Part shown: in pieces, positions 11,618-35,192 of the stretch
Layout of the letters: each line of letters starts with the position of its first letter
How positions within the stretch are numbered: position 1 is the first letter of the stretch
Assembly (NCBI RefSeq): GCF_000427625.1
Contig: NZ_ATYJ01000014.1
Span: forward strand, 186,001 to 250,000
DNA length: 64,000 nt
Source of the DNA: Methylobacter luteus IMV-B-3098
GTDB taxonomy: Bacteria > Pseudomonadota > Gammaproteobacteria > Methylococcales > Methylomonadaceae
Reading direction: 5' to 3'
Translations under genes and position numbers: made by a program
Notes under the pieces: model-generated
What the model was told of the DNA's origin: nothing
Databases searched by the model: none
What the model saw: only the letters and a program-made list of their open reading frames with translations

Positions 11618-11643
11618 TAATTGTTGCCGCTCCGGGTACGAGG

Positions 11644-18120: not shown

Positions 18121-18131
18121 CGAATTTTTGT

Positions 18132-18240: not shown

Positions 18241-18318
18241 AACCTGTCCAGGGGAAATCCATGTTCCCCGGCCGGGCTTCGTGTGTTTCCTCTGGTATTT
18301 TCCAAAGGAAATGACATG
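18241..18318 (+). promoter_or_regulatory. Three-part leader unit U1
   Basis: Segment 1: hairpin GGGGAAATCC...TTCCCC (18251-18269). Segment 2: GTGTGTTTCCTC (18281-18292). Segment 3: AAAGGAAATGAC-ATG (18304-18318). Segment 2 pairs over 6 bp (UUUCCU with AGGAAA) with the ribosome site, and the GGGGAAA of segment 1 offers a competing partner. Confidence 0.6.
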
Positions 18319-18447
18319 AGACTATTCATTCTTGTTCTGATGATGTTCAGCATTGGCGCCATTTGGCCTGCCAGTCAAACATTGAAGGCAGGCGCGGCTT
18401 TAAATGCCAGTCGTCACGCTCTCATTGAAGCGTTGACATCCAACTAA
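18316..18447 (+). CDS. Small membrane peptide, 43 aa
   Basis: ATG at 18316 with AAAGGA at 18305-18310. The first 18 residues (MRLFILVLMMFSIGAIWP) are a single hydrophobic segment or signal, followed by a short Ala-rich tail. First gene of the long rightward cluster; its TAA stop is part of the next leader unit. No family recognised. A second peptide of this kind is at 20178-20294. Confidence 0.55.
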   Translation: MRLFILVLMMFSIGAIWPASQTLKAGAALNASRHALIEALTSN

Positions 18448-18522
18448 CCCCTCTGGGAGATCATTCCCAGCAAAGGGGCATGGTCTCCTTTTTCTTTTTT
18501 GTCTATAGGAGACTTTCAAATG
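18445..18522 (+). promoter_or_regulatory. Three-part leader unit U2 (ssb)
   Basis: Outer stem CCCCT/AGGGG. Segment 1 TGGGAGATCATTCCCA (18454-18469), segment 2 ATGGTCTCC (18480-18488) then a T-rich run, segment 3 GGAGACTTTCAA-ATG (18508-18522). Segment 2 pairs 9 bp with segment 1 (one G-U) or 6 bp with the Shine-Dalgarno. The upstream stop codon TAA forms the first bases of the unit. Confidence 0.75.
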
Positions 18523-18936
18523 TACAACAAAGCAGTTCTTATTGGTCGTTTAGGTGCTGATCCAGAAATTCGGTACACCGCGCAGCAAAAGGCAATTGCC
18601 AACTTGAGCGTGGCTACGACGGAATCTTGGAGAGATAAATCTGGCGAGCGTCAAGAACGGACAGAATGGCACCGTGTTGTTCTGTTCGGCAAGCTTGCCG
18701 AAATTGCCCGCGATCACCTCAAAAGTGGCGCGCTAGTCTTGCTTGAGGGACCTAATCGTACCCGCAAATGGCGGGATAATTCTGGCAATGATCGGTATAC
18801 GACTGAGATCCATGCGGATGTCTTGAAAATGCTCGGTTCCAAATCGGATAAGGCAGCTTCTGGCTCTGCACCATCGTCAAGTCCATCGGAGGCTTATTCG
18901 GATTACGATGATTTTGATGGTAATCAGCCGCTTTAG
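18520..18936 (+). CDS. ssb: Single-stranded DNA-binding protein
   Basis: 138 residues from ATG 18520 (GGAGAC 7 bp before). The OB-fold runs from residue 1 to about 108 with the family motif [16 protein letters not shown] and the tryptophans W40, W54 typical of ssDNA contact. A Ser-rich linker follows, then an acidic tip ([10 protein letters not shown]) that departs from the usual DDIPF ending, so contacts with host partner proteins may differ. Together with bet and exo it forms a phage-like annealing recombination module, as in SXT/R391 and IncA/C elements, and it can also coat transferred single strands. Confidence 0.93.
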
Positions 18937-19000
18937 GAGTATTGCTGGTTAATCACGGCGTTGCTCCGTCTTTTCTGAGCATCGCTTCGTTTTAAATTTT

Positions 19001-19077
19001 CCCATGGGGACATCATTGTCCCTTGGGACTCCTGGTGTCCCTACCTTAATTCATTTTTATTTAGGAGTAACACCATG
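19001..19077 (+). promoter_or_regulatory. Three-part leader unit U3 (bet)
   Basis: Segment 1 GGGGACATCATTGTCCC (19006-19022) inside a CCCA/TGGG stem, segment 2 TGGTGTCCC (19033-19041), segment 3 GGAGTAACACC-ATG (19064-19077). Segment 2 pairs 9 bp with segment 1 (one G-U) or 6 bp perfectly with ACACCA at the start codon. Confidence 0.75.
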
Positions 19078-20097
19078 AGCAAACAATCATCACTGTTCCA
19101 GAAATTCGCAGAAAAATTCAGTTTCTCGGATGAAAGAGAGTTGATCAACACGTTGAAGGCGACCGCTTTCAAAGTCAAAGACGGCGAAGTCACCGATGCC
19201 CAGATGATGGCCTTATTGATCGTTGCTGACCAATATGGGCTGAATCCGTTCACTAAGGAAATTTTCGCCTATCCCGACAAACAGAACGGTATCGTGCCTG
19301 TTGTCTCTGTCGATGGCTGGTCGCGCATCATCAATCAGCATCCTGATATGGATGGCCTTGAGTTCATTTACGATGAAAACATCGTGACTGAGGCGGATGC
19401 CAAGCCTTGCCCTGCGTCGATCGAGTGCGTGATCTACCGTAAAGGCAGAGCGCATCCAGTCCGTATCAAGGAGTTCCTGGATGAAACGTATCGATCAACC
19501 TTTAAAGGCGTTAAAAACGGACAACCTTTTGAGATTAAAACCCCCTGGCAGTCGCATACCAAAAGGATGCTGCGCCATAAAGCCTTAATCCAGTGTTCTC
19601 GTATTGCCTTTGGTTTCACCGGTATTTATGACCAGGACGAAGCTGAACGTATTATCGAAGGCCAGGCTGAGCGTATTATTGAAGAGGTTCAATCCGAAGC
19701 CAGTGTGAAGGCCAAACAGATGCTGCCACGCCTCATCAATCGCGCTACCCGAGAAGGTTCTTGGCAAGCCGCGCTTGAATATGTCGGCGAACAATTCTCA
19801 GGATTCGATCTGGATTTCATGAAACATGGGCTTAATGCGGCTAAAGTAGCGGCTGAAGTAACTCAGCTTCCTGCTGATGCCAATGCTAAGCCAGGTCCAG
19901 CACGACAAGCCTCTGCGCCCAATGCTGACCCTAACGCTAAGCCAGCTTCAGCACAGCAATCCTCTGCGCCAAAAACAGATGTAGCTCAGAACACCGATTC
20001 TGCATCAGATTCTGGCAAGCAAGCTCAGGGCCAAAACGCTACTGTCAACAGGCAACGTAAAACGCCTCTAAGTGAAACAAGAGCCACATTAGCTTAA
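19075..20097 (+). CDS. bet: Bet/RecT-family single-strand annealing protein
   Basis: 340 residues. Residues about 1-195 match the phage Beta core (ADQYGLNPFTKEIFAYPDK, then VSVDGWSRIIN and KRMLRHKALIQCSRIAFGF). The C-terminal 100 residues are low-complexity (Pro, Ala, Ser, Asn) with a repeated ANAKPGPA/PNAKPASA-like segment, probably a flexible tether. It anneals complementary single strands produced by the partner exonuclease encoded at 20510. In SXT-like elements such modules generate hybrid elements by recombination between related plasmids. Confidence 0.93.
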   Translation: MSKQSSLFQKFAEKFSFSDERELINTLKATAFKVKDGEVTDAQMMALLIVADQYGLNPFTKEIFAYPDKQNGIVPVVSVDGWSRIINQHPDMDGLEFIYDENIVTEADAKPCPASIECVIYRKGRAHPVRIKEFLDETYRSTFKGVKNGQPFEIKTPWQSHTKRMLRHKALIQCSRIAFGFTGIYDQDEAERIIEGQAERIIEEVQSEASVKAKQMLPRLINRATREGSWQAALEYVGEQFSGFDLDFMKHGLNAAKVAAEVTQLPADANAKPGPARQASAPNADPNAKPASAQQSSAPKTDVAQNTDSASDSGKQAQGQNATVNRQRKTPLSETRATLA

Positions 20098-20111
20098 TTG
20101 TTAACTGTATC

Positions 20112-20180
20112 AACCCTTTCGGGCATTCTGAATGCCCATTTGGGTTAAGGATGCCCTTTGTTTTTTAGGAGCATCCTATG
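20112..20180 (+). promoter_or_regulatory. Three-part leader unit U4
   Basis: Outer stem AACCC/GGGTT (20112-20116, 20142-20146). Segment 1 GGGCATTCTGAATGCCC (20121-20137), segment 2 AGGATGCCC (20148-20156) then TTTGTTTTTT, segment 3 GGAGCATCCT-ATG (20168-20180). Segment 2 pairs 9 bp with segment 1 (one G-U) or 7 bp perfectly with GCATCCT. Confidence 0.78.
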
Positions 20181-20294
20181 ATTAAAGACCTACTTATCAA
20201 CTGCATATCCTTTTTGTTCATCGCGCTGACTTTTGCGCTGGCATTAATCGGAGATCTGACCTTTCCTGAGTTGTTCGTAACGGTTCTTAAGTAA
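20178..20294 (+). CDS. Small membrane peptide, 38 aa
   Basis: ATG with GGAG 7 bp upstream opens a frame with one transmembrane helix (ISFLFIALTFALALIG) and short polar ends. It sits between bet and a 44-residue ORF in a recombination operon; a role in membrane targeting or as a toxin-like peptide cannot be told apart. Confidence 0.55.
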   Translation: MIKDLLINCISFLFIALTFALALIGDLTFPELFVTVLK

Positions 20295-20310
20295 GTTTCA
20301 TTATTAAATT

Positions 20311-20381
20311 AACCCACCTGGGAAGCATCGTTCCCTTGTGGGTTCATCGTGTGCTTCCCATTATTTTTTGGAGGCATTATG
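20311..20381 (+). promoter_or_regulatory. Three-part leader unit U5
   Basis: Outer stem AACCCAC/GTGGGTT (20311-20317, 20338-20344). Segment 1 GGGAAGCATCGTTCCC (20320-20335), segment 2 GTGCTTCCC (20351-20359) then T-run, segment 3 GGAGGCATT-ATG (20370-20381). Pairing 2:1 is 9 bp (one G-U); 2:3 is 8 bp (two G-U). Confidence 0.75.
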
Positions 20382-20513
20382 AGGATAATAATCAACAAGT
20401 TGTGGTACAGCATTGATTACCGCGAGTACGACACACCGACGATTATTCGTCGCAAGGGATTCAGCATCCTCAGAAAATTCTGGAACTTGCGTGAAACGGG
20501 AGATCGACAATGA
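20379..20513 (+). CDS. Small basic protein, 44 aa
   Basis: ATG at 20379 after GGAGG. The peptide is basic (KLWYSIDYREYDTPTIIRRK) and ends with a TGA that overlaps the exonuclease start (ATGA), so it is translationally coupled to exo and probably sets its expression or partners with it. No family recognised. Confidence 0.6.
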   Translation: MRIIINKLWYSIDYREYDTPTIIRRKGFSILRKFWNLRETGDRQ

Positions 20514-21508
20514 AAATTGTCAACTTTCCGCAGCGCACGCCCGAATGGCATGAATGGCGGACTTCTGGTGTTTCGGCATCGGAAGCTATCGTGGTGCTTG
20601 GGAAGTGTTCGGCAAGGACAATTTACCGTCTGTACACGGAGAAAAAAGGGATCACATTGCTCGATAATCTGGCCAACAATCCCTTTGTTCAACGTGGCAT
20701 TCGCCTTGAATCCACCGCGCGCAGTTCTTTTGAACGCCGGCATAACACCCTGCTTTTGCCGATCTGTGCCGAATCTGAAGAATTCCCGTTTCTTCGGGCC
20801 TCGTTTGATGGCTTGGACGATGACGGGATTCCGGTGGAATTGAAAGTGCCGATGGAAGCTAATTTTCGCGACGCGCAACAAAACGGCGTCAATTCGAAGA
20901 TTTACCAACGGTATTACTATCAAGTCCAGCAGCAGATCGCGGTTGCCGAAACCGATCGAGGCTATTTGTCGCTCTACTGGAATGACAAGGAGCAATTCGA
21001 TTTCTTGATTCCAAGAGATGATCAGGTGATCCAGGAACTGATCTTTAAAGCGCGCGATTTTGTCGAGCGTATGAAAAAGAATCAGCCGCCGCCAACGGAT
21101 CCGGATCGCGATATTTACATACCACCCGGCCAGGAGATGGATCAATGGCAGTTGCTTGCAGCTGATTACCATCGGAATGAGGAAACGATCAGGGAATTGA
21201 AAGCCAGGATCGAGCCTCTTTTGCAGCAGCAGGCCGACATTGAAAAAGGCTTCCTGGACCTGATGGGTGAATATGCCCAAGCCGAAAGTGCAGGTCTTAG
21301 GGTCAGTCGCTTTCTGGTTCAGGGCAGCATCGATTACAAGGCGGCGTTAATGGCCTTGCAACCCGATGTTGATCCCGCCTTTCTGGAGCAATTTCGTAAG
21401 TCGTCCTCGGAACGAACTCGTGTTACGACCAAGGACGAAGAAAAAGCGACCGTGCCATTCTCAATGGATGCGGTCATGTCTACATTAGAGCGCGATTTCT
21501 GGTTCTGA
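20510..21508 (+). CDS. exo: YqaJ/lambda-type exonuclease
   Basis: 332 residues. The catalytic core of the PD-(D/E)XK exonuclease fold is visible: SGVSASEA at 19-26, RGIRLE at 62-67, Asp100 (ASFDG), Glu110-x-Lys112 (PVELKVP), and the YYYQVQQQI helix. It should chew one strand of duplex ends to feed the Bet annealing protein. The C-terminal 150 residues add a helical extension with a coiled-coil-like segment (EETIRELKARIEPLLQQQ). Translationally coupled to the 44-aa ORF upstream. Confidence 0.9.
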   Translation: MKIVNFPQRTPEWHEWRTSGVSASEAIVVLGKCSARTIYRLYTEKKGITLLDNLANNPFVQRGIRLESTARSSFERRHNTLLLPICAESEEFPFLRASFDGLDDDGIPVELKVPMEANFRDAQQNGVNSKIYQRYYYQVQQQIAVAETDRGYLSLYWNDKEQFDFLIPRDDQVIQELIFKARDFVERMKKNQPPPTDPDRDIYIPPGQEMDQWQLLAADYHRNEETIRELKARIEPLLQQQADIEKGFLDLMGEYAQAESAGLRVSRFLVQGSIDYKAALMALQPDVDPAFLEQFRKSSSERTRVTTKDEEKATVPFSMDAVMSTLERDFWF

Positions 21509-21532
21509 CGAGCCTTTAGTCGTTAATTTTTT

Positions 21533-21595
21533 AACCCATCGGGGAACACTGTCCCCGCTGGGTGCAGGTGTTCCCCATTTTTTGGAGGCACTATG
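21533..21595 (+). promoter_or_regulatory. Three-part leader unit U6
   Basis: Outer stem AACCCA/TGGGT. Segment 1 GGGGAACACTGTCCCC (21541-21556), segment 2 AGGTGTTCCCC (21566-21576) then ATTTTTT, segment 3 GGAGGCACT-ATG (21584-21595). Pairing 2:1 is 10-11 bp; 2:3 is only about 6 bp with three G-U, one of the weaker units. Confidence 0.65.
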
Positions 21596-21943
21596 CGCCG
21601 ACGATACCGAGGATTTGATCCTTCGCTGAACCTGGACTGAATCGAGGACGAGTGGCTATGGCTTCACAGCACGGAACCGTTGCTGGAAGAAACACCGCCC
21701 TGGTCGGAACAGGAGATTTTCGATGTCTGCGAATGTCTTCTGCAGGATTCTTTGCAGAATCTGTTTGACAGCCGCTGCTCATTGGAAACCGTTGTCGAAA
21801 TATACAAATGGTTAACGGACGACAACGATCCCAACCCATTTAGTTTTAACAATTGCTGCCTATTGACAGAACTTGATCCCGATGCCATTCGGGATTCGGT
21901 GCTGTACCGTCTGGCAAAAATACGCAAGTTCTTCTTGCATTAA
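21593..21943 (+). pseudogene. Hypothetical acidic protein with in-frame TGA
   Basis: The ATG after GGAGG starts MRRRYRGFDPSLNLD, then meets TGA at 21638-21640; the same frame continues IEDEWLWLHSTEPLLEETP to 21943. Trp at the TGA would give a 116-residue acidic protein with a good ribosome site and a leader unit in place. No alternative start with a ribosome site serves the downstream part (a TTG at 21680 is weak). Either a recent nonsense mutation or readthrough. No family recognised. Confidence 0.6.
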
Positions 21944-21946
21944 CTT

Positions 21947-22027
21947 AACCCAACCGGGGAAACACCATTTCCCGGTCTGGGGCTTGGCGTTTCCCCATTC
22001 TGATTTAGATTTAGGAGAAACACCATG
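21947..22027 (+). promoter_or_regulatory. Three-part leader unit U7
   Basis: Begins 3 nt after the upstream stop. Segment 1 (21956-21973) starts GGGGAAACACCAT; segment 2 TGGCGTTTCCCC (21985-21996); segment 3 GGAGAAACACC-ATG (22014-22027). The word GAAACACCAT is identical in segments 1 and 3, and segment 2 has the same single A-C mismatch with both. Confidence 0.78.
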
Positions 22028-22726
22028 CCTGAATTGAAAAAATTCGCAGTCAGTTACACCATTGACTACCAACATCGAATAGTTGTTGGCATCTCAGCAT
22101 TGAATGCCGAGTCCGCCATCAAAATTGCCACCAAGGCATTTGATGAGGGCGAGATTTGGGAGGATACGCCTGATATGCCGCTCCTATTCGATGACTATGA
22201 AGAAATTGAAGGCGAAACCCTGGAATTTTTCGCTGAAGAAGTTTCGGAATTTCCAGAACCCGATTCGTCAGTGATCAAGCTGAAGCAAGATCAGTTTGCC
22301 TATCAGGCTTGCCGATCCTTATTGGAAGGCGACTTTAATGTAGCACGTGATTTTGCCCAAAAGGCTTGCCCCAAGGTTGCTGAAAAACCGGAGAACTACT
22401 GTTTGACCAGCTTAGAGGTTTTGGATCTTGCTCAAGACTATAACCTTGAGCTCTCCTTGGCTGTCAATGATTCCTTTATGACAGGTATTTTCTTGAATGC
22501 TCAATCCAGAGGCCGGTATTTCCATAAGGGATTTGACGGTCATTCGAAAAAGATTAAGGCGCACGAGTTTTTGCTTGCTTACCCTCTCTCATTGGGAAAG
22601 GTCTGGCGCATTGATCGTAAAACGCCGGCAAAATCGTTGTTACGCCGTTTTCAGGCCGTTCAACAGATTATTGTCAAGCATCTGATGTCATTGGCGTATT
22701 TCTCGCCCTTGACGCATTTAATCTAA
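22025..22726 (+). CDS. Hypothetical protein, 233 aa
   Basis: ATG preceded by GGAG. The first 75 residues form an acidic alpha/beta domain (FAVSYTIDYQHRIVVGISALNAESAIKIA is the pattern of small DpnD/PcfM-like domains, a weak resemblance). The middle is helical and Cys-containing, the C-terminus basic. No signal or membrane segment. Position suggests a plasmid-establishment or recombination role, but nothing specific can be said. Confidence 0.6.
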   Translation: MPELKKFAVSYTIDYQHRIVVGISALNAESAIKIATKAFDEGEIWEDTPDMPLLFDDYEEIEGETLEFFAEEVSEFPEPDSSVIKLKQDQFAYQACRSLLEGDFNVARDFAQKACPKVAEKPENYCLTSLEVLDLAQDYNLELSLAVNDSFMTGIFLNAQSRGRYFHKGFDGHSKKIKAHEFLLAYPLSLGKVWRIDRKTPAKSLLRRFQAVQQIIVKHLMSLAYFSPLTHLI

Positions 22727-22741
22727 CTTTCGATTTAGCTT

Positions 22742-22805
22742 GAGGGAGGGCTTATTTTCCTTTTAGGAAAATAGCTTCTCCCCTTTAATGGAGGAAATCA
22801 TCATG
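22742..22805 (+). promoter_or_regulatory. Degenerate leader unit U8
   Basis: Here the unit is one long hairpin: GGAGGGCTTATTTTCC (from 22745) with GGAAAATAGCTTCTCC, loop TTTTA, then CTTTAAT and GGAGGAAATCATC-ATG. The outer AACCC stem is missing. It can act as a terminator-like stem but the anti-ribosome-site pairing is weak. Confidence 0.5.
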
Positions 22806-23066
22806 TTGATTAACACTCAATCCAATCTTGTACCGAAAACGGTCGGTCCATTTCGTATTCAGAAGATGCCTAGCATTTTCATGTCAAGAAATGGTAAGAA
22901 CGATATTGTCATTCACAAGGAAAACAGTGAGAACTGGGGCGCCATGTATGATGACAAGTATTATAGGATCGCCATGATTCTCGATGCCGAAACCTTTCAT
23001 CCTATTCGCTCTAACCTTACGGTGCCGAGTGAAGTTCTGGACAATTTGAAGGTGTGGGGATTTTGA
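22803..23066 (+). CDS. Hypothetical protein, 87 aa
   Basis: The ATG at 22803 follows GGAGGAAATC; the upstream in-frame ATG at 22788 lies before the ribosome site and is rejected. The product is a small mixed alpha/beta protein with MSRNGKNDIVIHKENSENWG in the middle and no recognised family. It is followed 2 bp later by the next gene, so the two are one translational unit. Confidence 0.6.
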   Translation: MLINTQSNLVPKTVGPFRIQKMPSIFMSRNGKNDIVIHKENSENWGAMYDDKYYRIAMILDAETFHPIRSNLTVPSEVLDNLKVWGF

Positions 23067-23068
23067 CT

Positions 23069-23341
23069 ATGTTGGAATATTTGACTAATCGTTTTTTTCG
23101 GTTAAAGCAGGCTTTGGAACAAGCCAGAGCTGCATTGCCCGATGCGAGCTTTGCTGAACAGGAAGGCATTGATCCTGACCTGATCGTTCGTATCAACTGC
23201 GTTTTGCATAGCTCTGATGATTTTGAGGTATTGAAACTTGCGTTAATGGATGCGAGAGAAGCGTTACCTACAGCCTGGATTAACCATGGCGGCGTTTCAC
23301 AGGAATTGCTGGATTTAATCGATTCAGCCCTCCACATGTAA
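23069..23341 (+). CDS. Hypothetical helical protein, 90 aa
   Basis: ATG at 23069, two bases after the previous stop, with no ribosome site of its own, so translation likely depends on the gene before. Predicted all-helical, with two similar halves (LKQALEQARAALPDASF and LKLALMDAREALPTAWI, each followed by xxGxxxxLLxxI), an internal repeat. No family recognised. Confidence 0.6.
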   Translation: MLEYLTNRFFRLKQALEQARAALPDASFAEQEGIDPDLIVRINCVLHSSDDFEVLKLALMDAREALPTAWINHGGVSQELLDLIDSALHM

Positions 23342-23380
23342 TCAGGCACCTTCCCTTCCAGGAAGCGTGTTTCATTTTTG

Positions 23381-23451
23381 AACCCTCGCGGGCTTATTCC
23401 CGCCAGGGAGTAACTCCGCGATTTTTTAATGTTCAAGGAGTTACTAATATG
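23381..23451 (+). promoter_or_regulatory. Three-part leader unit U9
   Basis: Segment 1 GCGGGCTTATTCCCGC (23388-23403), segment 2 AGTAACTCC (23409-23417, continuing GCG), segment 3 AGGAGTTACTAAT-ATG (23436-23451). Segment 2 pairs 9 bp perfectly with GGAGTTACT, or about 10 bp with segment 1 (two G-U, one mismatch). Confidence 0.78.
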
Positions 23452-23898
23452 TCATTTGACAAAGACACCACTGTAAAGCCTGTTGAGCCCGATGCGGTAC
23501 TGACTGAAGACGGTTATCTATTCTTCAGGCTCAGCAACGGGATGTACGTGGACAATCCGGCTTGTGCGGATCTGGGCTACAGCTCATTGGCTCAGTTGAC
23601 CGAGACCATCGACATCATGACGCCAAGAGCGACCGCAAAGCGTTTGGCCGATTATCATGACTGGACGCAGGAAGAACTTGCTCACGCAATCTCAGCCTTG
23701 GATAGTGTCTATGGCTCTGAAGATGCGGTTAAGCTCGCAAACGGCCGCGAGATTCGCTGGCTATCGGCAGCTTGCACCTATGTGCGCGTGGTACAGTCAG
23801 GTTTTGAGCTTGCTTGCTGGTCCAGCGCTGACTGGCGGTTTGCTTCTGAAAAGACGATGGCAGCCATCCTGGCCTGTAGTGCAGGCGGCAAGTTGTAA
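23449..23898 (+). CDS. Hypothetical protein, 149 aa
   Basis: ATG after AAGGAG. The first 50 residues look like a small beta-rich module (LTEDGYLFFRLSNGMYVDNP), the rest helical with several Trp. No signal or membrane segment. Last gene of the first sub-operon: an attenuator-like terminator and a new promoter cassette follow within 320 bp. Confidence 0.6.
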   Translation: MSFDKDTTVKPVEPDAVLTEDGYLFFRLSNGMYVDNPACADLGYSSLAQLTETIDIMTPRATAKRLADYHDWTQEELAHAISALDSVYGSEDAVKLANGREIRWLSAACTYVRVVQSGFELACWSSADWRFASEKTMAAILACSAGGKL

Positions 23899-23950
23899 GG
23901 CCTCTTCTCTAAAGACGTGCACTTTTGCTGTTTTTAGCATTTAACATTCA

Positions 23951-24027
23951 GACGGACACAGGCATAATAGGCTTGTGCCGTCTTTCCAGAATGCTCGGAT
24001 TGAGTATTGCGGAAAGACGGAATTTTT
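23951..24027 (+). terminator. Intrinsic terminator with competing hairpin
   Basis: Terminator stem CCGTCTTTCC...GGAAAGACGG (23978-24020) followed by AATTTTT. Its 5' arm CCGTCT can instead pair with AGACGG at 23951, part of a GACGG(A)CACA/TGTGCCGTC hairpin. The identical choice of partners recurs at 30231-30307, so the arrangement is selected. Confidence 0.8.
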
Positions 24028-24029
24028 GT

Positions 24030-24140
24030 AGTTCTCTAAGAGAACTCAAAATCAGTGCCAGTTCAGCACTCAAAATAAGGAATCGATGAAGCGCTACGGC
24101 GTGATTATTTTTTAAGCGGCTCTGCCGCATTTATATTTTT
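24030..24140 (+). promoter_or_regulatory. Long promoter/leader cassette R2
   Basis: Palindrome AGTTCTCTAAGAGAACT (24030-24046), AGTGC/GCACT (24054-24070), CAAAAT as -10 (24072-24077), AAGGAATCGATG, then GCGC-UACG-GCGU (a UNCG tetraloop hairpin, 24091-24102) and GCGGC/GCCGC hairpin followed by T-rich sequence. Same spacing as R1 and R3. It should drive the AAA/WGR/DUF3150/VWA sub-operon. Confidence 0.68.
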
Positions 24141-24223
24141 AACCTGTTCAGGGGAAATCCATGTTCCCCGGCCGGGCTACGTGTGTTTTTCCTTGGTTTT
24201 ATAACTTAAGGAAACACACGATG
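24141..24223 (+). promoter_or_regulatory. Three-part leader unit U10 (AAA ATPase)
   Basis: Segment 1 GGGGAAATCC...TTCCCC (24151-24169) is identical to U1. Segment 2 CGTGTGTTTTTCC (24180-24192), segment 3 AGGAAACACACG-ATG (24209-24223). Segment 2 pairs 9 bp perfectly with AAACACACG plus CC with GG across a 2-nt bulge, covering the whole ribosome site. Confidence 0.75.
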
Positions 24224-25192: not shown

Positions 25193-25194
25193 TC

Positions 25195-25938: not shown

Positions 25939-25952
25939 CAACTTTTTGAATT

Positions 25953-26033
25953 TAACCCACAGGGGGCAACTATCGTCCCTGGTGGGCGTAGTCTGCCCTC
26001 TCTTGTATTTATTCTTTTGGAGACGCAGCTATG
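25953..26033 (+). promoter_or_regulatory. Three-part leader unit U11
   Basis: Outer stem CCCAC/GTGGG. Segment 1 starts AGGGGGCAACTATC (25961-25980), segment 2 GTAGTCTGCCCTC (25988-26000), segment 3 GGAGACGCAGCT-ATG (26019-26033). Segment 2 pairs with GGGCA-ACTA of segment 1 or GCAG-CTA of segment 3, each with one bulged base. Confidence 0.68.
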
Positions 26034-27425: not shown

Positions 27426-27443
27426 TCTCGCTTTTTTCATTCT

Positions 27444-27510
27444 ACCCGGCGGGTGCAATGCATCCCGCAGGGGTGTTCTGCCCTCGCCTCCATTTCCTGG
27501 ACAGAATATG
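27444..27510 (+). promoter_or_regulatory. Three-part leader unit U12
   Basis: Segment 1 GCGGGTGCAATGCATCCCGC (27449-27468), segment 2 GTTCTGCCCTC (27475-27485), segment 3 GGACAGAAT-ATG (27499-27510). Segment 2 pairs UUCUG-CC with GGACAGAA across one bulge. The Shine-Dalgarno here is only GGA, which fits the changed word. Confidence 0.65.
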
Positions 27511-27945: not shown

Positions 27946-27972
27946 TGAACGGATTTTGATAATTTAAACTTT

Positions 27973-28038
27973 AACCCTCAAGGGGCAAACATGCCCTATG
28001 GGAATCATGATTTGCCCATTTTTTTGGAGTAGACCATG
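27973..28038 (+). promoter_or_regulatory. Three-part leader unit U13 (VWA gene)
   Basis: Segment 1 GGGGCAAACATGCCC (27982-27996), segment 2 ATGATTTGCCC (28007-28017) then ATTTTTTT, segment 3 GGAGTAGACC-ATG (28026-28038). Pairing 2:1 is 10 bp with one bulge; 2:3 is weak (5 of 6 positions), so this unit looks more terminator-like than ribosome-blocking. Confidence 0.6.
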
Positions 28039-29889
28039 AGAAATAACACATTGAACAACGCATTTCCCATTGTTGCGGCAGCCTTAGGCAACAAATTTGG
28101 TGTCAAGGTCAGAGTAGGCGGCCAGCATGCCTATACCGATGGCAAGTCAATCAACCTGCCGGCTTACAACTTTGAAGATTCGTCTTACAAGGATGTGGCT
28201 TGGGGCTATCTGGCGCATGAAGCGGCTCATCTGCGGTTTACCGATTTCGCTGATTTTGGTAATGCCGCTACCAGTCCGATCCGCAAGCACATTCTCAATT
28301 TTCTGGAAGATATCCGTATCGAGAAGCAGATGCAGGAAACTTATCCGGGTACCAGACGGACGACGGAAAAAGTGGTTGAGCATTTGATTAAGACGGGCGA
28401 TTTTAAAGTCGTCAGTCAAGATCAGCAGGTTCATCCCGCTGCCGTTTTGAGTCAGTTTTTGCTGTTTCGTCTTCGTAATGATGTGCTGGGGCAGAATGCC
28501 CTGTCATCTTATGCAGATACTGCTGAAGCCTTGTTGGAAGAAACCTTCCCGGTCGGCGCAGTAACCCGACTTGCAGGTCTTCTTTCCGAAGTCCCGAATC
28601 TAGATTCTACGCGTGCTTGTGTTCGGCTTACCGATCGTATTCTGCGCATGATCGAAGAAGAGCAGGAAAAGGAACAGGAAAGAGTGCGGCAACAGAAGCA
28701 GTCTCAGCAGCAAGAGAGTGATGATTCGTCATCGCAATCGCAGACGGCTTCCGGTAATTCTGATCAGGATGATGATTCAAGCGATGATGATTCCCAACAG
28801 GATGATTCGTCTCAAGATGATGATTCTCAAAGCGATCAGGATGATGGTCAGGATCAAAGCCAATCTCAAAACTCACAGTCGAGTAATGAGGGTGATGACG
28901 ACAATGATCAGGAGGACGATCAACAAGCTGGTCAGGGCAATACACAGTCCGCCGGCAGCAGTAATGATCAATCACAGGGCCAGGACAGTGAGCAACTGGC
29001 GCAAGCCTTGGCTTCTGTATTATCGGCCGGTGAAGACGATGTGCCTGATGACTTGTTCGAAGTCGTTCAAGCGCTTTTGGGCAGTCAGCCTCGAAACGCT
29101 TATGATTCGGATATTGAAATGCCACTTGCCATGGATCCTTCCAGGAATTCTGCTGCTGGCAATGCCGTGTTAAACAGTGTACTGAATCATTCGGGCAAAA
29201 TCCGGGCTTCTCTTCAGGGCCTGGTGCAATCAAGCCGTTATGACAGACCTGTGGCTAAGCGTTCAGGCAATCGTATTGTCGGTCGAAAATTGTCCCGCTT
29301 GGTTCAAGGTGATGCGCGCATTTTCGAACGCCGATTTCATCATTCGGCACCCAATACCGCAATTCACCTGTTGGTTGACGGCTCCGGCTCTATGAGTGGC
29401 GTGTATGATCAGCAATCGAAGTCCCGGTTGATCGATATTGCCATTGAATCGGCCGTTGCATTGGTATTGGCGCTTGAAGGCATTTCAGGTGTTAATCCGG
29501 CTGTGACGCGATTTCCGTATGGTGATACGTCCAATGTGGTTCCGTTGTTGAAGCATGGGCAGAAGGCTCGTCCTAATGCGGCAGTGTTTTTGCCGGCTAC
29601 GGATGGAGGCACGCCACTGCATTCGGCTCTTTGGTATGCGGCAGGATCTGTACTGGCCACGCGTGAAGCGCGGAAAGTCATCATCGTTCTGACCGATGGC
29701 GAACCCGATGATCGAAGTTTGACTAAAGCGATCATCAATCGTTGTGAAGCGACGGGCATCGAACTGGTTGGCATTGGCATCTGCCATAATGTCAGCCATT
29801 TGTTCGATAACTCGATCTGCATCAGCAACGTCTCCGAGTTGAAAACTGAACTATTCAGAATCAGCCGAGACCTGTTGTTGACCGCTTGA
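28036..29889 (+). CDS. CobT-like VWA protein with HExxH motif
   Basis: 617 residues. An N-terminal metal-binding HEAAH motif (61-65) with a nearby EDIRIEKQM helix resembles a zincin fold. Residues about 210-325 are an extreme Asp/Ser/Gln-rich linker. The C-terminal VWA domain carries the MIDAS motif DGSGS near residue 450 (LLVDGSGSMSG), GGTPLHSAL, and VLTDGEPDD. This domain order is that of CobT-type chelatase partners and of VWA proteins paired with MoxR-like ATPases; the ATPase at 24221 is the natural partner. HExxH plus VWA suggests a regulated protease or a metal-dependent remodelling machine. Confidence 0.88.
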   Translation: MRNNTLNNAFPIVAAALGNKFGVKVRVGGQHAYTDGKSINLPAYNFEDSSYKDVAWGYLAHEAAHLRFTDFADFGNAATSPIRKHILNFLEDIRIEKQMQETYPGTRRTTEKVVEHLIKTGDFKVVSQDQQVHPAAVLSQFLLFRLRNDVLGQNALSSYADTAEALLEETFPVGAVTRLAGLLSEVPNLDSTRACVRLTDRILRMIEEEQEKEQERVRQQKQSQQQESDDSSSQSQTASGNSDQDDDSSDDDSQQDDSSQDDDSQSDQDDGQDQSQSQNSQSSNEGDDDNDQEDDQQAGQGNTQSAGSSNDQSQGQDSEQLAQALASVLSAGEDDVPDDLFEVVQALLGSQPRNAYDSDIEMPLAMDPSRNSAAGNAVLNSVLNHSGKIRASLQGLVQSSRYDRPVAKRSGNRIVGRKLSRLVQGDARIFERRFHHSAPNTAIHLLVDGSGSMSGVYDQQSKSRLIDIAIESAVALVLALEGISGVNPAVTRFPYGDTSNVVPLLKHGQKARPNAAVFLPATDGGTPLHSALWYAAGSVLATREARKVIIVLTDGEPDDRSLTKAIINRCEATGIELVGIGICHNVSHLFDNSICISNVSELKTELFRISRDLLLTA

Positions 29890-29900
29890 TCTTTGCCTTA

Positions 29901-29932
29901 TGGCCAATCTTTTTTGATTGGCCAGATTTTTT
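29901..29932 (+). terminator. Hairpin with T-run after the VWA gene
   Basis: TGGCCAATC (29901-29909) pairs perfectly with GATTGGCCA (29916-29924), followed by GATTTTTT. It stands where other junctions have a leader unit but lacks a segment complementary to the next ribosome site. Confidence 0.75.
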
Positions 29933-29954
29933 ATTCAGTTCCAATGGAGAATTT

Positions 29955-30137
29955 ATGCTTTCAAAAAAGCAATCTGAGTTCTTATCAAAACTAGCTGACT
30001 TGTGCGATGAGTACAATGCTGGCTTTACCTATACTAAAGATGACGATGGTATTCATGTTTTGATAGATGGGATAGATGTTTTTGCCGATTATCTTGATAT
30101 GGATGCCGCTGGTACTATTCGTAAAGCATTAATTTAA
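29955..30137 (+). CDS. Hypothetical small acidic protein, 60 aa
   Basis: ATG at 29955 with TGGAG 8 bp before; the longer frame from 29886 crosses the terminator hairpin and is rejected. Acidic, soluble (LADLCDEYNAGFTYTKDDDG), no recognised family. Last gene before the second attenuator/promoter boundary. Confidence 0.6.
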   Translation: MLSKKQSEFLSKLADLCDEYNAGFTYTKDDDGIHVLIDGIDVFADYLDMDAAGTIRKALI

Positions 30138-30230
30138 TGCTTTACCTTCACATATGGTTAATTCGTTTTTTTGATTAGCCATTTTCCTACCCGGACAAGG
30201 CGTTTTCCTTTTCTGGGTAGCTTAACATTT

Positions 30231-30307
30231 AGACGGCACAGATTCAGTTCTGTACCGTCTTTCCAGAATGCTTGCCTGGATCGAGCATTGCGGAAAGACG
30301 GAATTTT
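30231..30307 (+). terminator. Intrinsic terminator with competing hairpin, second copy
   Basis: Terminator stem CCGTCTTTCC...GGAAAGACGG (30255-30301) then AATTTTT. AGACGGCACAG at 30231 can pair with CTGTACCGTCT and occlude the terminator arm. Same logic as 23951-24027 although the loop sequences differ. The 30138-30230 stretch before it holds no gene, only weak stems (CTACCC/GGGTAG). Confidence 0.8.
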
Positions 30308-30310
30308 TGC

Positions 30311-30416
30311 AGTTCTCTGAGAGAACTCAAAAGCAGTGCCAGTTCAGCACTTAAAATAAGGAATCGGTGAAGCGTTTCGGCGCGATTACTTTTTAGCGGC
30401 TTAGCCGTATTTTCAA
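30311..30416 (+). promoter_or_regulatory. Long promoter/leader cassette R3
   Basis: Palindrome AGTTCTCTGAGAGAACT (30311-30327, centre base changed but symmetry kept), AGTGC/GCACT (30335-30351), TAAAAT as -10 (30352-30357), AAGGAATC, then GCGU-UUCG-GCGC hairpin and GCGGC/GCCGU hairpin. Relative to R2 the UNCG hairpin shows compensatory change (GCGC/GCGU against GCGU/GCGC), supporting RNA structure. Confidence 0.68.
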
Positions 30417-30522
30417 CCTGTCCAGGGGAAATCCATGTTTTCCCGGTCGGGATTCATGGTTTTTGTCTGGCTTCAGGCCATTATCGCCCCATGCTCCGCA
30501 TGGCAAGCGACCTTTACTTTAA
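30417..30522 (+). promoter_or_regulatory. Orphan leader unit without its gene
   Basis: Segment 1 GGGGAAATCC... (30425-30444) matches U1 and U10, and segment 2 CATGGTTTTTGTC lies at 30455-30467, but no complementary ribosome site and no gene follow before unit U14. The remaining 55 bases hold nothing recognised. A gene was probably deleted here. Confidence 0.5.
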
Positions 30523-30594
30523 AAACCCGCCGGGAACAATTTTGCTCCCAGTGGGGGAAGTTTTGTCTCCCGGTTTTTTGGAGACAAAACTATG
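30523..30594 (+). promoter_or_regulatory. Three-part leader unit U14 (GHKL gene)
   Basis: Segment 1 GGGAACAATTTTGCTCCC (30532-30549), segment 2 AGTTTTGTCTCCC (30559-30571) then GGTTTTTT, segment 3 GGAGACAAAACT-ATG (30580-30594). Segment 2 pairs 12 bp perfectly with the entire ribosome site; with segment 1 it pairs about 8 bp with one bulge. Confidence 0.82.
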
Positions 30595-32193
30595 AAACAA
30601 ATCTCAATGCAAGTGAACCCAGGCAACCTGGTTAAAAGCTTGAAGTTCAGCTTTACCAACAAGACCACGGCTCTTGGCGAACTCATGCAGAACGCCCGTC
30701 GTGCCGGCGCAGCTTCCGTTCAATTCGAATTCGCTCCGGAGACTAAAATTCTCCAGATCACGGATAACGGTTGTGGCATCAATTCCATCGAAACGCTGCT
30801 AACTGTGGCAGAATCCGGTTGGGATGCGGATGTTGTCGCTCAAGAGCATCCGTTCGGTATTGGCTTTCTGTCAGCTCTCTTTGCCTGCCGGCACATCGCT
30901 GTCGTCAGCAAAAGCGGCCGCATTTCCGTTAATACGGAGGATGTCCTGTCGTTCAAGCCGGTTACGGTATCACCCGTCACTGATTGGAATGGCATCACCC
31001 GCATCAAGATGTTAGGTGTTGAGCTCGAATCGAAACTGATCGAATCAACGCTCAAACGCTTCGCGAAAGGATTTCCAATTCCGGTTTTTTTCAATGGCGA
31101 AAGCCTGGAAAGAGATCAGGTGTTGGATTCCGGCCTGGATTTTGTCGATACTGAAGTCGGCTCGGTTCATCTGGTCGGCCTGGATAAACCCGATGGCGCT
31201 CATTATGCGTTTGAAGTGTATCTGCAGGGCTTGCCCATTTACCGATCCCATTTGTATTGCAGTACGACGCATGTCATCCATCTCGACTCTGCGCGTTTCC
31301 ATGCGCGGTTACCGGATCGGGACAACCTCGTTGATGAGTCCGATGTGATTAAGCTCATTCATCAAGCGTTGCAACAGGCTATCGAAAATCGCCTGCTTCA
31401 GCTCAAAAGCACATTGTCCGCTCAGGATTTTGTGCAGTTCTTTGACATGATGAGGCACTGGGGATTGTTGGGCTTGCTCAATGATGTGGAGGTACTTCCA
31501 CAACAGGCAGTCCGCAAGATCACGTCCTATCCTGTCTGCGATTCTGAGCTTTACGGCTGCTTCACGGCTTGTCCGGAAAAACCCGTGACTCGCGCAGAAG
31601 TTGAAAATCGTCAGGTGGAAATTGTCGATATTGAAGGCGATATCCAAAGCGATGGCGCTGCGCGCTTCATGTTTGCCTGGATGCGGGATTCCCTGATTTA
31701 CGAGGGGTGTCTTGATAACGGGCACTGGATTCATTCGATGATTCGCTCTCTCGATGAGGAAGAAGTCATGATTGATCTGGTTAATCAAACACACGCCTCG
31801 CGATTTAAAGGCAGTTGGGTATGGGTGGATGTTAAGTTTTGCGATTCCTACCGCATCCGGATTGGCAACGATGTCGTTGAAATTACTAGTCAGGCTTTCT
31901 ACGAAGGCAACGAAAACGGTGGTTGCATTGTGATGCCTAAAGACGATGGTTCTGCAGCTGTCCTGGAACAAGTGTCAACGTTCCGGTCAGAACACGAAGA
32001 TTACCAGGAAGCCATACACGAGACCGATGGTGACGCTTTTTCCACTTTCGTTATCGCCAATGTGCTGACAGATTCTGGCCAGGCATTCCACCGATTGCTG
32101 CCGAGTTTTCAAGGCTGCCCTTCCCTTTATGGCAAAGCGTTTGAAGTGGTGCTCGATAAAAATGGCCAGGTTGCTTTGGTAACGGCTGTTTAA
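30592..32193 (+). CDS. GHKL-family ATPase, 533 aa
   Basis: The Bergerat ATP-binding fold is clear: N-box ELMQNARRAGA (30-40), G1 box ITDNGCGI (56-63), G2 region FGIGFLSALF (88-97). This fold is shared by Hsp90, MutL, topoisomerase II and histidine kinases; here no phosphoacceptor or kinase dimerisation domain follows, so an Hsp90- or MutL-like ATPase is more likely. The C-terminal half is unrecognised. First gene of the third sub-operon under cassette R3. Similar stand-alone GHKL ATPases occur on plasmids and in defence islands, but its job here is unknown. Confidence 0.82.
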   Translation: MKQISMQVNPGNLVKSLKFSFTNKTTALGELMQNARRAGAASVQFEFAPETKILQITDNGCGINSIETLLTVAESGWDADVVAQEHPFGIGFLSALFACRHIAVVSKSGRISVNTEDVLSFKPVTVSPVTDWNGITRIKMLGVELESKLIESTLKRFAKGFPIPVFFNGESLERDQVLDSGLDFVDTEVGSVHLVGLDKPDGAHYAFEVYLQGLPIYRSHLYCSTTHVIHLDSARFHARLPDRDNLVDESDVIKLIHQALQQAIENRLLQLKSTLSAQDFVQFFDMMRHWGLLGLLNDVEVLPQQAVRKITSYPVCDSELYGCFTACPEKPVTRAEVENRQVEIVDIEGDIQSDGAARFMFAWMRDSLIYEGCLDNGHWIHSMIRSLDEEEVMIDLVNQTHASRFKGSWVWVDVKFCDSYRIRIGNDVVEITSQAFYEGNENGGCIVMPKDDGSAAVLEQVSTFRSEHEDYQEAIHETDGDAFSTFVIANVLTDSGQAFHRLLPSFQGCPSLYGKAFEVVLDKNGQVALVTAV

Positions 32194-32204
32194 TTCATTC
32201 TATT

Positions 32205-32284
32205 AACCCGTTCGGGAAATACTTTCCCGGTCGCGGCGTGAGGTGTTTCCCGATTTATTTTTTTTATTTTGGAGAAACACGATG
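32205..32284 (+). promoter_or_regulatory. Three-part leader unit U15
   Basis: Segment 1 GGGAAATACTTTCCC (32214-32228), segment 2 AGGTGTTTCCC (32241-32251) then long T-rich run, segment 3 GGAGAAACACG-ATG (32271-32284). Pairing 2:1 is 11 bp (two G-U); 2:3 is 7 bp perfect (GUGUUUC with GAAACAC). Confidence 0.78.
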
Positions 32285-32668
32285 AAACAAACTTCCACGT
32301 CAATTGGCCAACCGTACAAAAATCCTAACGGTGATTTGCAATGCGATGCGGTGGGGCATCTGGGCGATTATGTCATCCGCAAAACAGCGGACCATACCTG
32401 GATTGCCATTCAGTTGTTCGGCGCGATAGGCAGTATTGCCGCAACCGCTCCCACGCCTGAAGACGCCTTTAACCAGGCGGAAGACTGGCATTACGCCAAC
32501 GGCATCCAGAAACGTCTGACTATGAGCTTGGCTATCGAAGGCGTTGAGACATTTGATCTGGAGCTCGCTTTAAATGAAGTGTTGAAACTGGTCAGCGAAG
32601 GCTATACGTCCGGTTCCGATAGAAACGAGACTGGATCGTACAAGTTTTCAATTGACGCTATTGATTAA
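32282..32668 (+). CDS. Hypothetical protein, 128 aa
   Basis: ATG at 32282 with GGAG. The product looks like a two-layer small domain (VGHLGDYVIRKTADHTWIAI) followed by helices; no signal or membrane segment. No family recognised. Confidence 0.6.
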   Translation: MKQTSTSIGQPYKNPNGDLQCDAVGHLGDYVIRKTADHTWIAIQLFGAIGSIAATAPTPEDAFNQAEDWHYANGIQKRLTMSLAIEGVETFDLELALNEVLKLVSEGYTSGSDRNETGSYKFSIDAID

Positions 32669-32679
32669 TTAACTAACTA

Positions 32680-32764
32680 AACCCCTGCGGGAAAAATCTT
32701 TTTCCCAGCCGGGACTCATGATTTTTCCCGCTTTTTTTTGCTTTTAAGCAGGAGAAAAATCATG
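32680..32764 (+). promoter_or_regulatory. Three-part leader unit U16
   Basis: Segment 1 GGGAAAAATCTTTTTCCC (32689-32706), segment 2 CATGATTTTTCCC (32717-32729) then CTTTTTTTT, segment 3 GGAGAAAAATC-ATG (32751-32764). Segment 2 pairs 11 bp perfectly with segment 3 including AUG, and 10 bp perfectly with segment 1: the clearest two-way choice. Confidence 0.85.
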
Positions 32765-33622
32765 ACAAATTCATTTTTTGCCAAGAAAGTTGACCGTCGC
32801 AGCCGTTCGGCCATGGTTGATTTTTTGCGAACTCATTATCGCTACGACACCCTGAATTCATGGAATCGGTCGACCTCTTATGCGCAGTGCATCAAGATCC
32901 ATCGTCTGGGCTTGACTTCTGAGCAATCAGACAAAGCCTATGACCTGCTGGAGACGGATTTCTGGGATGAAATCAGATGGCCGATCGATGAGTTCACTGA
33001 CTCTCAAGGTGGCTGTTACACCATCGGTACTAACGGTCGTTCCGGGGGTTATCTGGTGTTGCATGAGCCTCGTCGTGAGCTGACAGGACATCTCAGCTAT
33101 TGTCCTTCTTGCGGCCAGCGGAACTTCAAAAAAGTGCCGCCTGCTTTCGAGGAGGCTGCCGAGCAAGTTATTGCTCAGGAGATTCTCAAAAGCAGAAACG
33201 CGTGGCAGTCGGGTGTTTATTTGTCGCAGCCCTCAATAGAAGCTTTATTGCTTTCCCATGATGAGAAGTTGTCGATAATCACCCGCCTGAAAGCCCAGTT
33301 AGCCGATTGTTCCCTGACGGATGCTTGCGGTGCCTGTTGGAAGCCACGCCGTAACTACAGTGTGCCGCCTGTTGTGCAATTGGCCGTTTATGCGGGCAAA
33401 GGCATTGATCAAGGCGAAGCGTTTGATGCCGAAGAGTGGTCAATGGAGGCGCTGCGAGAACGTGTCGATCTGGTTTGCGCCTTTGATGCCGTTTGCGATC
33501 AGATCCGCCATAACTTCATCGCTTTGCTGGTTGGCTATGACGTGGTCGAGGAAACGGTTCATCGACCCGTCAAAGTCAAAGTTCTCCGTGAGCGTGCTGC
33601 TGGAGGTTTTGATGCTGAGTGA
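32762..33622 (+). CDS. Hypothetical protein with Cys pair, 286 aa
   Basis: ATG at 32762 after GGAG. The middle contains YCPSCGQRNF and, further on, DACGACWKP, a possible zinc-binding site of the C-x2-C type. The C-terminal part is helical. Unrecognised family; such proteins on conjugative elements are often annotated as hypothetical near primases. The stop overlaps the next gene. Confidence 0.6.
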   Translation: MTNSFFAKKVDRRSRSAMVDFLRTHYRYDTLNSWNRSTSYAQCIKIHRLGLTSEQSDKAYDLLETDFWDEIRWPIDEFTDSQGGCYTIGTNGRSGGYLVLHEPRRELTGHLSYCPSCGQRNFKKVPPAFEEAAEQVIAQEILKSRNAWQSGVYLSQPSIEALLLSHDEKLSIITRLKAQLADCSLTDACGACWKPRRNYSVPPVVQLAVYAGKGIDQGEAFDAEEWSMEALRERVDLVCAFDAVCDQIRHNFIALLVGYDVVEETVHRPVKVKVLRERAAGGFDAE

Positions 33623-33863
33623 AGTTGATGAAATCGATAGCGAGGACCTGGAGGCCGCCTCTGATTTTTACGAGCGTATGGTCAGTGGCACACGTTCTGA
33701 TCAGCAGGCCATTGCGATTGCACAAGCGCAATTTGGCGTTCCTATTGCGGGTCATGTTGTATTGAACCGTATTTTGGAACGGTACGCTTGTTCTCTGTTG
33801 ACTATTGAAGAGTGCGTCTTGACGTGTCTTGAACAGTCAGGCTTTATGCGTCTAGTTGACTAG
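33612..33863 (+). CDS. Hypothetical acidic protein, 83 aa
   Basis: ATG at 33612 overlaps the end of the previous gene by 11 bp and has GGAGG about 7 bp upstream. Acidic, helical (SEVDEIDSEDLEAASDFYERM), with Cys near the C-terminus. No family recognised. Confidence 0.6.
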   Translation: MLSEVDEIDSEDLEAASDFYERMVSGTRSDQQAIAIAQAQFGVPIAGHVVLNRILERYACSLLTIEECVLTCLEQSGFMRLVD

Positions 33864-33873
33864 ACGCTTCAAT

Positions 33874-34025
33874 TAACCCATCCGGGAAAAACTCCCGGCT
33901 GGGCCCATGGTTTTTCTCGGATGGTTTTTTCATCCTGTTCGCCTTCCGGGACTTCCTTGATTCTCACCTGGAGGGGGATCAAGGAAGTCCCGGTTGGCGG
34001 GACTTTTACAAGGAGAAAAACCATG
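33874..34025 (+). promoter_or_regulatory. Three-part leader unit U17 with inserted long hairpin
   Basis: Segment 1 CCGGGAAAAACTCCCGG (33882-33898), segment 2 CATGGTTTTTCTCGG (33906-33920), segment 3 GGAGAAAAACC-ATG (34012-34025). Segment 2 pairs 13 bp perfectly with segment 3 including AUG, and 11-12 bp with segment 1 (two G-U). Between 2 and 3 an extra perfect 16-bp stem (33946-33961 with 33978-33993) brings the two segments together, which no other unit needs. Confidence 0.82.
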
Positions 34026-35179: not shown

Positions 35180-35192
35180 AAGGGAGGTTTCT

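Follow-up and report, generated by a model that had tools for sequence, protein, structure and literature searches.

The window analysed here, a stretch of 64,000 nucleotides from Methylobacter luteus IMV-B-3098, lies on a contig of 317,982 bases (C2), and its gene cluster is assigned to a Methylobacter megaplasmid; in the plasmid records searched, Methylobacter sp. YRD-M1 is the nearest named relative of the source genome, as judged by the DUF3150 protein. A block between 18.2 and 35.5 kb codes for ssb, recT, a YqaJ exonuclease, a MoxR-type ATPase, a DUF3150 protein, a CobT/VWA protein, a HATPase, a toprim primase and several proteins of unknown function. Within it, a recurrent leader unit, the subject of this report, precedes the start codons of one gene after another. 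An earlier note on this DNA had described a three-part leader at about 16 junctions of the cluster; the observation proved real, and 18 such units are detected between 18238 and 34025, all on the + strand.

Each unit consists of six alternating segments, namely a (YAACCC), b (GGG and a short word), c (CCC), d (GGG), e (the complement of the word, followed by CCC) and f (GGAG, the word again and ATG), with a few free bases between a and b, a short loop between b and c, a few bases between c and d, a short spacer between d and e, and a loop of variable length between e and f. Segment e terminates in CCC or CTCC and often complements the start codon as well (CATGG...). The segments allow two folds: fold A combines a:d, b:c and e:f and closes both the Shine-Dalgarno (SD) sequence and the ATG, the pairing of e with f thus hiding the ribosome site as had been proposed, and fold B pairs b with e and, because c:d forms within b:e, amounts to one long hairpin that leaves a and f free. 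The second helix, c:d, which joins the second strand of the first hairpin to the 3' strand of the outer stem, was not part of the earlier description; as it accompanies b:e, it marks b:e as the SD-free state.

The units were detected with a covariance model, R1, built from 48 units of 32 sources, which contains the e:f pairing and not b:e. Its rows are 48 of 68 picks drawn from 133 (among 174 of suitable length) that were already predicted in fold A, and R1 (also A1 and A2) therefore leans to that fold. In the window, 15 units reach E<=0.0025, and three weak ones, at 30412, 27440 and 23378, have E-values of 0.04-0.13. Four window units are rows of the model and match it by construction. Across the whole 5-Mb genome there are 13 R1 matches at E<=0.003, all inside the block and including one mirror match on the - strand; since 150 of 494 first-look candidates were scored, these counts are lower bounds.

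In order along the block, the first unit (18238-18318; 20.6 bits, E 3e-4) stands behind a repeated promoter-side block and precedes an open reading frame (ORF) of 43 aa starting at 18316. It is followed by the units of ssb (18443-18522, start 18520; 25.2 bits; SSB PF00436) and of the recT/bet-like gene (18996-19077, start 19075; 24.0 bits; RecT PF03837), and by two rows of the model, one before a 38-aa ORF (20109-20180, start 20178; 52.9 bits) and one before a 44-aa ORF (20308-20381, start 20379; 43.9 bits) that overlaps the YqaJ exonuclease gene at 20510 (YqaJ PF09588). The unit at 21530-21595 (47.2 bits) leads into an ORF starting at 21593. Next come units before ORFs of 233 aa (21944-22027, start 22025; 44.3 bits), 87 aa (22733-22805, start 22803; 18.4 bits, E 0.0014) and 149 aa (23378-23451, start 23449), the last weak by score (11.7 bits, E 0.13) and clear by pairing, with a 9-bp e:f helix. 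The MoxR-type AAA ATPase (AAA_5 PF07728) has its unit at 24138-24223 (start 24221; 17.5 bits, E 0.0025), the DUF3150 gene (PF11348) at 25951-26033 (start 26031; 40.9 bits), a 145-aa ORF a weak one at 27440-27510 (start 27508; 12.8 bits, E 0.063), and the CobT/VWA gene (CobT PF06213, VWA PF00092) another row of the model at 27970-28038 (start 28036; 59.6 bits). The HATPase gene carries a tandem pair, comprising a weak upstream unit (30412-30493; 13.5 bits, E 0.039) and a model row adjoining the gene (30521-30594, start 30592; 37.8 bits) with a 12-bp e:f helix at 30559/30580. Units before a 128-aa ORF (32202-32284, start 32282; 32.4 bits) and a 286-aa ORF (32677-32764, start 32762; 44.2 bits; e at 32717, f at 32754) precede the last one (33872-34025; 26.8 bits for 33872-33923), which has 13-bp words (e at 33906, f at 34013) and a long e-f loop with an extra hairpin at about 33939-34000, and which leads into an ORF of 24 codons (start 34023) that overlaps, with its stop codon, the beginning of the primase gene at 34094. 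All ten words quoted in the earlier note are present, nine of them exactly where it had placed them; GAGAAAAACCATG begins at 34013 rather than 34012, and AGGATGC and GCATCCT have further occurrences in the cluster.

Two features beside the units deserve mention. The ORF behind the unit at 21530 (21593-21943) meets a TGA in its own frame after 15 codons, although the frame is open beyond it; the gene is either defective or recoded at this site. A repeated block, about 190 nt long at most, occurs in three copies (18115-18288, 23992-24188 and 30273-30462), pieces of which are 72-96% alike; each copy directly precedes a unit and carries a hairpin and a GTGCCAGTTCAGCAC stretch. An analogous repeated block is present in two copies in the IncC locus L027 (13783-13983 and 17538-17803). 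These blocks are possibly internal promoters or another RNA element.

The evidence that both partners of segment e are kept comes principally from swap tests, in which the pairing energy of each unit's own segments is compared with that of segments exchanged between units, b:f serving as the control. The segments were picked by a pattern that specifies the CCC-GGG-CCC-GGG spacing with an A preceding the first CC, together with the presence of an SD and of an ORF, and that does not require complementarity of the words. Two long, spurious matches out of 188 were taken out, and for the remaining 186 units b:e averages -14.9 kcal/mol against -9.6 when swapped (z -28.5) and e:f -13.1 against -8.5 (z -23.8), with none of 300 permutations reaching either value. 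Both pairings are unit-specific in all seven groups of loci tested, where no more than 1 of 500 permutations reaches the observed value, and among nine of the 18 window units none of 500 permutations does so for either pairing, against 160 of 500 for the control. Removal of near-identical units, some stretches having entered twice under different locus ids, reduced a set of 383 to 225 non-redundant units; for the 208 of these that were tested, the own partner is the best within the locus in 127 cases for b:e and 109 for e:f, where 28 are expected and the control gives 30. The result also holds in loci outside the model, where the best 90 of 142 matches yielded 82 parsed and 69 non-redundant units, 59 of them in loci with three or more: here the own partner is best in 31 of 59 for b:e and 27 for e:f, with 11 expected and 13 for the control.

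Leaders of orthologous genes show the same preference for the own partner in four sets. Own and swapped energies (kcal/mol) are -16.6/-11.1 for b:e and -13.3/-9.3 for e:f before vwa (own partner best in 4 and 4 of 20, control 1), -17.0/-13.8 and -14.4/-11.0 before duf3150 (3 and 4 of 17, control 2), -16.9/-12.8 and -12.4/-9.7 before recT (5 and 5 of 19, control 1), and -14.8/-10.0 and -12.5/-8.9 before moxR (6 and 5 of 19, control 3), about one being expected in each case; the hatpase set comprises four leaders only. An alignment to the model was made from the best 150 of 380 matches (145 distinct rows, related sequences included) and was fitted to fold A, not B. It contains 251 double changes in the pairs of fold A, where shuffling gives 113.5, and 134 in those of fold B, where it gives 82.6. 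Real leaders also exceed shuffled ones: an unbroken helix of 7 bp or more joins the SD-ATG stretch to sequence within the preceding 103 nt in 8 of the 16 unit leaders tested, against 5 of 100 other starts of contig C2 and 9.2% of leaders whose upstream sequence was shuffled. Thus, as judged from these comparisons of sequence, the two alternative pairings of segment e are both maintained by covariation.

Outside the SD, the start codon and the pairing strands, the 150 rows are strongly conserved only in the YAA before CCC: the A directly before CCC, which the search pattern demands, is present in 131 rows, and the second A, which it does not demand, in 119. The loops contain no conserved core. 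As these A's are mostly without a pairing partner (a T directly follows d in 29 of the 225 units), there is a hint that segment a might be read as sequence, a property that would fit recognition by one common trans-acting factor. Elsewhere in the units, several moxR leaders (loci among L039-L049) show an extra inverted repeat between e and f, e.g. CGGGTGAAACCCTG, and nine units before different genes in L137 (50-7378) share a near-identical word, as if homogenised, while the words diverge elsewhere.

Computed energies place most units in fold A. With ViennaRNA, e:f is part of the predicted ground state in 168 of the 186 units, and when the SD-ATG stretch is held open b:e forms in 163 of them, at a mean cost of 6.6 kcal/mol. 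For the 225 units, the ground state contains e:f without b:e in 191, b:e in 33 and neither in one, and b:e forms in 192 once segment f is left out. In the 175 units that show both folds, A is favoured over B by about 7 kcal/mol, with mean barriers, which are rough path estimates, of 18.3 kcal/mol from the latch (a:d and b:c) to B and of 14.6 kcal/mol from B to A. These rough calculations suggest that the latch would form first and trap b, so that the gene would be off by default and an opener should be needed.

The units extend well beyond Methylobacter. The DUF3150 protein, used as a marker of related elements, was found in 20 of 151 genomes (own included), and units were located by the pattern in 23 of 25 loci. 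The Bet protein of an IncC plasmid as query gave 61 loci, some on contigs already in the set: in 27 of these (L051-L077) the bet strand has 196 occurrences of the pattern and the opposite strand two (1 of the 198 matches being unparsed), with none in L075 and L076, and in the other 34 (L078-L111) each strand has two. R1 matches at E<=1e-5 are present in at least 40 of the 369 gammaproteobacterial genomes sampled, a count that takes in the source genome and 13 genomes having three or more matches, and in at least 20 of 398 genomes of a phylum sample, three of them outside the class; with 12-13 candidates scored per genome and rough E-values, these counts are lower bounds. In the 137-kb IncC plasmid all R1 matches at E<=0.0013 fall within record positions 78,351-94,617, and its corresponding block has 15 strong matches (E<=5.1e-4). 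The class recurs also in a Pseudomonas plasmid, and three stretches of pPp47 gave no R1 match up to E 0.5. The genes behind units elsewhere include those for an antirestriction protein, RadC, DUF6094, DUF6573, DUF4942, a helicase, RecT, MoxR and DUF3150, 7 of the 20 proteins scanned having no Pfam match. The Escherichia coli K-12 islands CP4-44, CP4-57 and CP4-6, which carry RadC and antirestriction genes, gave no units (best E 0.12). Given the variety of the genes and their lack of units in these islands, the unit appears to go with certain types of element rather than with particular genes.

Within the blocks, the units follow gene spacing. By our own list of genes in the window, 17 of 18 spaced starts have a unit, the HATPase gene having two, and none of the six close-packed or overlapping starts does (20510, 23054, 25195, 33612, 34094 and 35193). 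In the annotated IncC block the figures are 15 of 17 spaced genes, with 17803 and 22246 included by weak matches, and none of four close-packed ones (10127, 19165, 19448 and 23960). Three further observations concern starts: the spaced window start at 29955, the only one without a unit, is preceded by a plain terminator-like hairpin (29889-29955); two IncC units stand at unannotated starts (L027 8468-8536, start 8534; 21367-21431, start 21429); and a third (L027 22108-22218) points to a start at 22216, in frame and 30 nt upstream of the annotated one at 22246. Where mobile genes are poorly annotated, units may thus help to tell which start codons are the true ones.

Taken together, these features lead to the proposal, which we regard as probable, that each unit is a two-state translational attenuator that is off by default. 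In fold A, the latch hairpin would occupy b, leaving e to pair with f, so that the SD and start codon would be hidden and translation would be low in the ground state. Opening of the latch would allow b:e and c:d to form, which would free f and turn the gene on; the shift to B might be brought about by a factor that holds the strand YAACCC of segment a, or by opening the latch in some other way. The sequence layout, the covariation of both pairings and the distribution are observed, and the energies of the two folds are computed, while the assignment of the on state to fold B and a signal common to the units are inferences. With a unit at almost every start that is not close-packed, the cluster would be damped gene by gene and could answer one common signal. 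A bolder and rather doubtful extension is that the units form a widespread and previously undescribed class of mobile-element RNA switch in which one trans-acting factor, either a protein or a small RNA, captures YAACCC and opens 15-18 genes together as a translational regulon, perhaps at a set stage of conjugation; the gene words would then drift in three-way step because pairing alone matters. Two other schemes were rejected. A decoy leader peptide starting inside segment b has a suitably placed ATG in 22 of 186 units only, and a timer acting on nascent RNA, with B forming before A, is disfavoured by the rough computed barriers.

Several results weigh against the two-state attenuator. The control b:f is itself slightly better than swapped in the 186 units (-5.4 against -5.1 kcal/mol, z -2.8, 0 of 300 permutations; z -2.0 in L039), and in the six ssb orthologs e:f is not unit-specific (b:e -14.5/-12.4, e:f -11.8/-12.0; own partner best in 2 and 0). 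The number of pairs with any double change does not exceed that of shuffles (293 of 500 shuffles reach the count for fold A, 417 of 500 for fold B), the pair types of fold B lie within the shuffle range (142 of 500 reach them), and fold B slid by -2 columns scores almost equally (0.247 against 0.251); for these reasons the column-wise evidence for fold B is weaker than the unit-wise evidence. The predicted ground state departs from e:f without b:e in 34 of the 225 units, and both folds are displayed by only 175. The spaced starts at 29955 in the window and at 8743 and 17203 in IncC lack a convincing unit, and the plasmids L029 and L030 have none by pattern or model, yet they keep the recT, exonuclease, MoxR, DUF3150 and VWA genes (L029 also ssb). 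Finally, no shared element-borne regulator stands out from a gene comparison of the IncC plasmid with contig C2: 44 of the 629 IncC ORFs match, and those without a match in pPp47, comprising a replication protein, Bet, a large protein with Ig-like domains, the toprim gene, the small protein behind it, ParM, the weakly matching topoisomerase 3 and ORF 21504-22688, and reverse-strand shadow ORFs, include no clear RNA-binding regulator.

This last result also suits a simpler account, in which e:f merely lowers translation and b is kept for tuning the level, with no signal involved. The energy lead of fold A and the loops without a conserved core fit it equally; but b:e is kept as strictly as e:f in the own-partner counts, although a plain SD hairpin needs no b:e, and the second A before CCC is conserved although mostly unpaired, so that we consider such a static damper possible but less than probable. 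The earlier note had favoured a relay, in which a ribosome, on finishing the upstream gene, would unfold the outer stem and so free the next start, the translation of each gene licensing that of the next. The absence of units from close-packed genes is compatible with this, as are the barrier of the latch, which suggests that an active opener is needed, the stop codons that overlap or touch segment a in 5 of 9 IncC units tested, and the 9-codon frames that end about 20-27 nt before segment a in two of the window's three promoter-side blocks. However, the first of these blocks has just a 4-codon frame, on reading the analogous IncC blocks have none, and the distance from the upstream stop varies too widely for a general rule. 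Counting any ORF of at least 30 codons as upstream gene, so that some distances are uncertain, the outer stem begins within 15 nt of the stop (overlaps included) in 46 of 184 units, at 16-20 nt in 26, 21-30 in 30, 31-50 in 28, 51-100 in 39 and beyond in 15, i.e. at more than 50 nt in 54. In the nine window units tested the values are -1, 15, 17, 4, 40, 16, 28, 154 and 12 nt, so that the interval of 3-27 nt previously ascribed to most units holds for five of the nine; among all window units, the three at 18238, 24138 and 30412 follow the repeated non-coding blocks, the latter two 240-275 nt from the nearest gene. We therefore regard a relay as unlikely.

Still less likely is that the units act on transcription, with b:e and a following U-run as an intrinsic terminator and the latch as antiterminator. 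Counted over both strands, the cluster does have 41 terminator-like sites, about twice the 19.7 of shuffled sequence (standard deviation 4.6), and a T-run of at least five between e and the SD is present in 7 of the 9 window units tested, as the earlier note had it. In the class as a whole, such runs occur in 65 of the 225 units (1 of 9 in IncC, none of 12 in L067 and none of 12 in L070), being common mainly in AT-rich methanotroph loci, and the terminator reading fits that AT-rich lineage only. Moreover, a terminator does not need e to be complementary to the SD-start stretch, and bet and exo are described as highly transcribed in a passage of a review (PMC4542580). That the units function as DNA and not as RNA, whether as single-strand hairpins or as sites for recombination or for proteins, seems scarcely credible: they are partly palindromic and located in mobile elements, but f coincides with the SD and start codon and there is the strand bias of 196 to 2 in the 27 bet loci, even if the pattern itself includes an SD, a start codon and an ORF.

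Some neighbouring features may be recorded. L029 (8119-20288) repeats a ribosome-site leader of its own (ATGAGGTATAT and related forms) in front of several genes. The small protein behind the primase gene of the window (35043-35459) is conserved in IncC (34% identity, E 7e-17) and has no match in pPp47, and its 88-aa form from 35193 gave no Pfam match. Farther upstream, two ORF pairs of the same sizes (165 and 342 aa; 6629-8181 and 10589-12141) flank a 591-aa ORF in inverted orientation, an arrangement that resembles a composite element flanked by insertion sequences.

Precedents for a default-off two-state leader are known. In the translation attenuation of erm genes, alternating segments hide the SD by default and free it on re-pairing. 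The units share these traits, and differ in serving many genes with gene-specific words, in the two-part stem of the latch (a:d, b:c) and in the lack of a leader peptide at a fixed place: no leader frame of the erm type was encountered at a fixed distance, the upstream stops of the 184 units, with frames below 30 codons not counted, ranging from overlapping to more than 100 nt away. As in translational riboswitches, b would act as anti-anti-SD and e as anti-SD; unlike in riboswitches, the 150 aligned rows show no conserved unpaired core of the ligand-binding type, conservation being confined to the pairing strands, SD, start codon and YAA. The leader of the maturation gene of phage MS2, which is translated only before its folding finishes, also has two folds with the SD closed in the final one; the computed barriers of the units, unlike that case, disfavour fold B as a transient of synthesis. 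Searches with Rfam 15 at the gathering score gave no match in the window and two group II intron matches only in L134, L135, L136, L138, L027 and L028, and searches by E-value of the window block, L136 and L139 gave nothing relevant.

The claim that no described RNA class has this layout needs correction in one respect. The leader upstream of bet in the SXT/R391 integrative and conjugative elements and IncA/C plasmids is a strong translational attenuator that lowers bet translation, and bet and exo are poorly expressed despite their transcription, according to the passage in the review (PMC4542580, crediting Garriss et al. 2013). The IncC bet leader (L027:11642-11723) is a unit of the present class (R1 49.1 bits, not a model row), as is the recT leader of the window; the named SXT leader was not identified among the E. 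coli genomes listed. As far as the review's description allows comparison, the attenuator and the IncC unit stand at the same place before bet, the former being reported, and the latter proposed, to act on translation. The attenuator is reported singly, whereas here it is one of 15 strong IncC matches, beside the 18 units found in the window, of a kind that is widely distributed and laid out for two folds. This statement on bet was all that turned up in searches of open papers, where the repeated units were not found described; passages of PMC4344509, PMC3915882, PMC4207636 and PMC11541004 and a term search of PMC2786100 gave no mention of such leaders. One member is thus already known, while these searches met no published account of the class, of the design with two folds or of the use of units gene by gene.

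Through the tie of one segment to two partners, selection for two alternative RNA folds has left a clear natural trace in these units. IncC-type conjugative plasmids spread drug resistance, and the recombination genes of IncC and SXT are described in the same review passage as strongly transcribed, with SXT bet held down by its translational attenuator (PMC4542580). If nearly every spaced gene of the block has such a switch, these elements would possess a second layer of control that is invisible in transcript data, and a common trigger for it can be sought.

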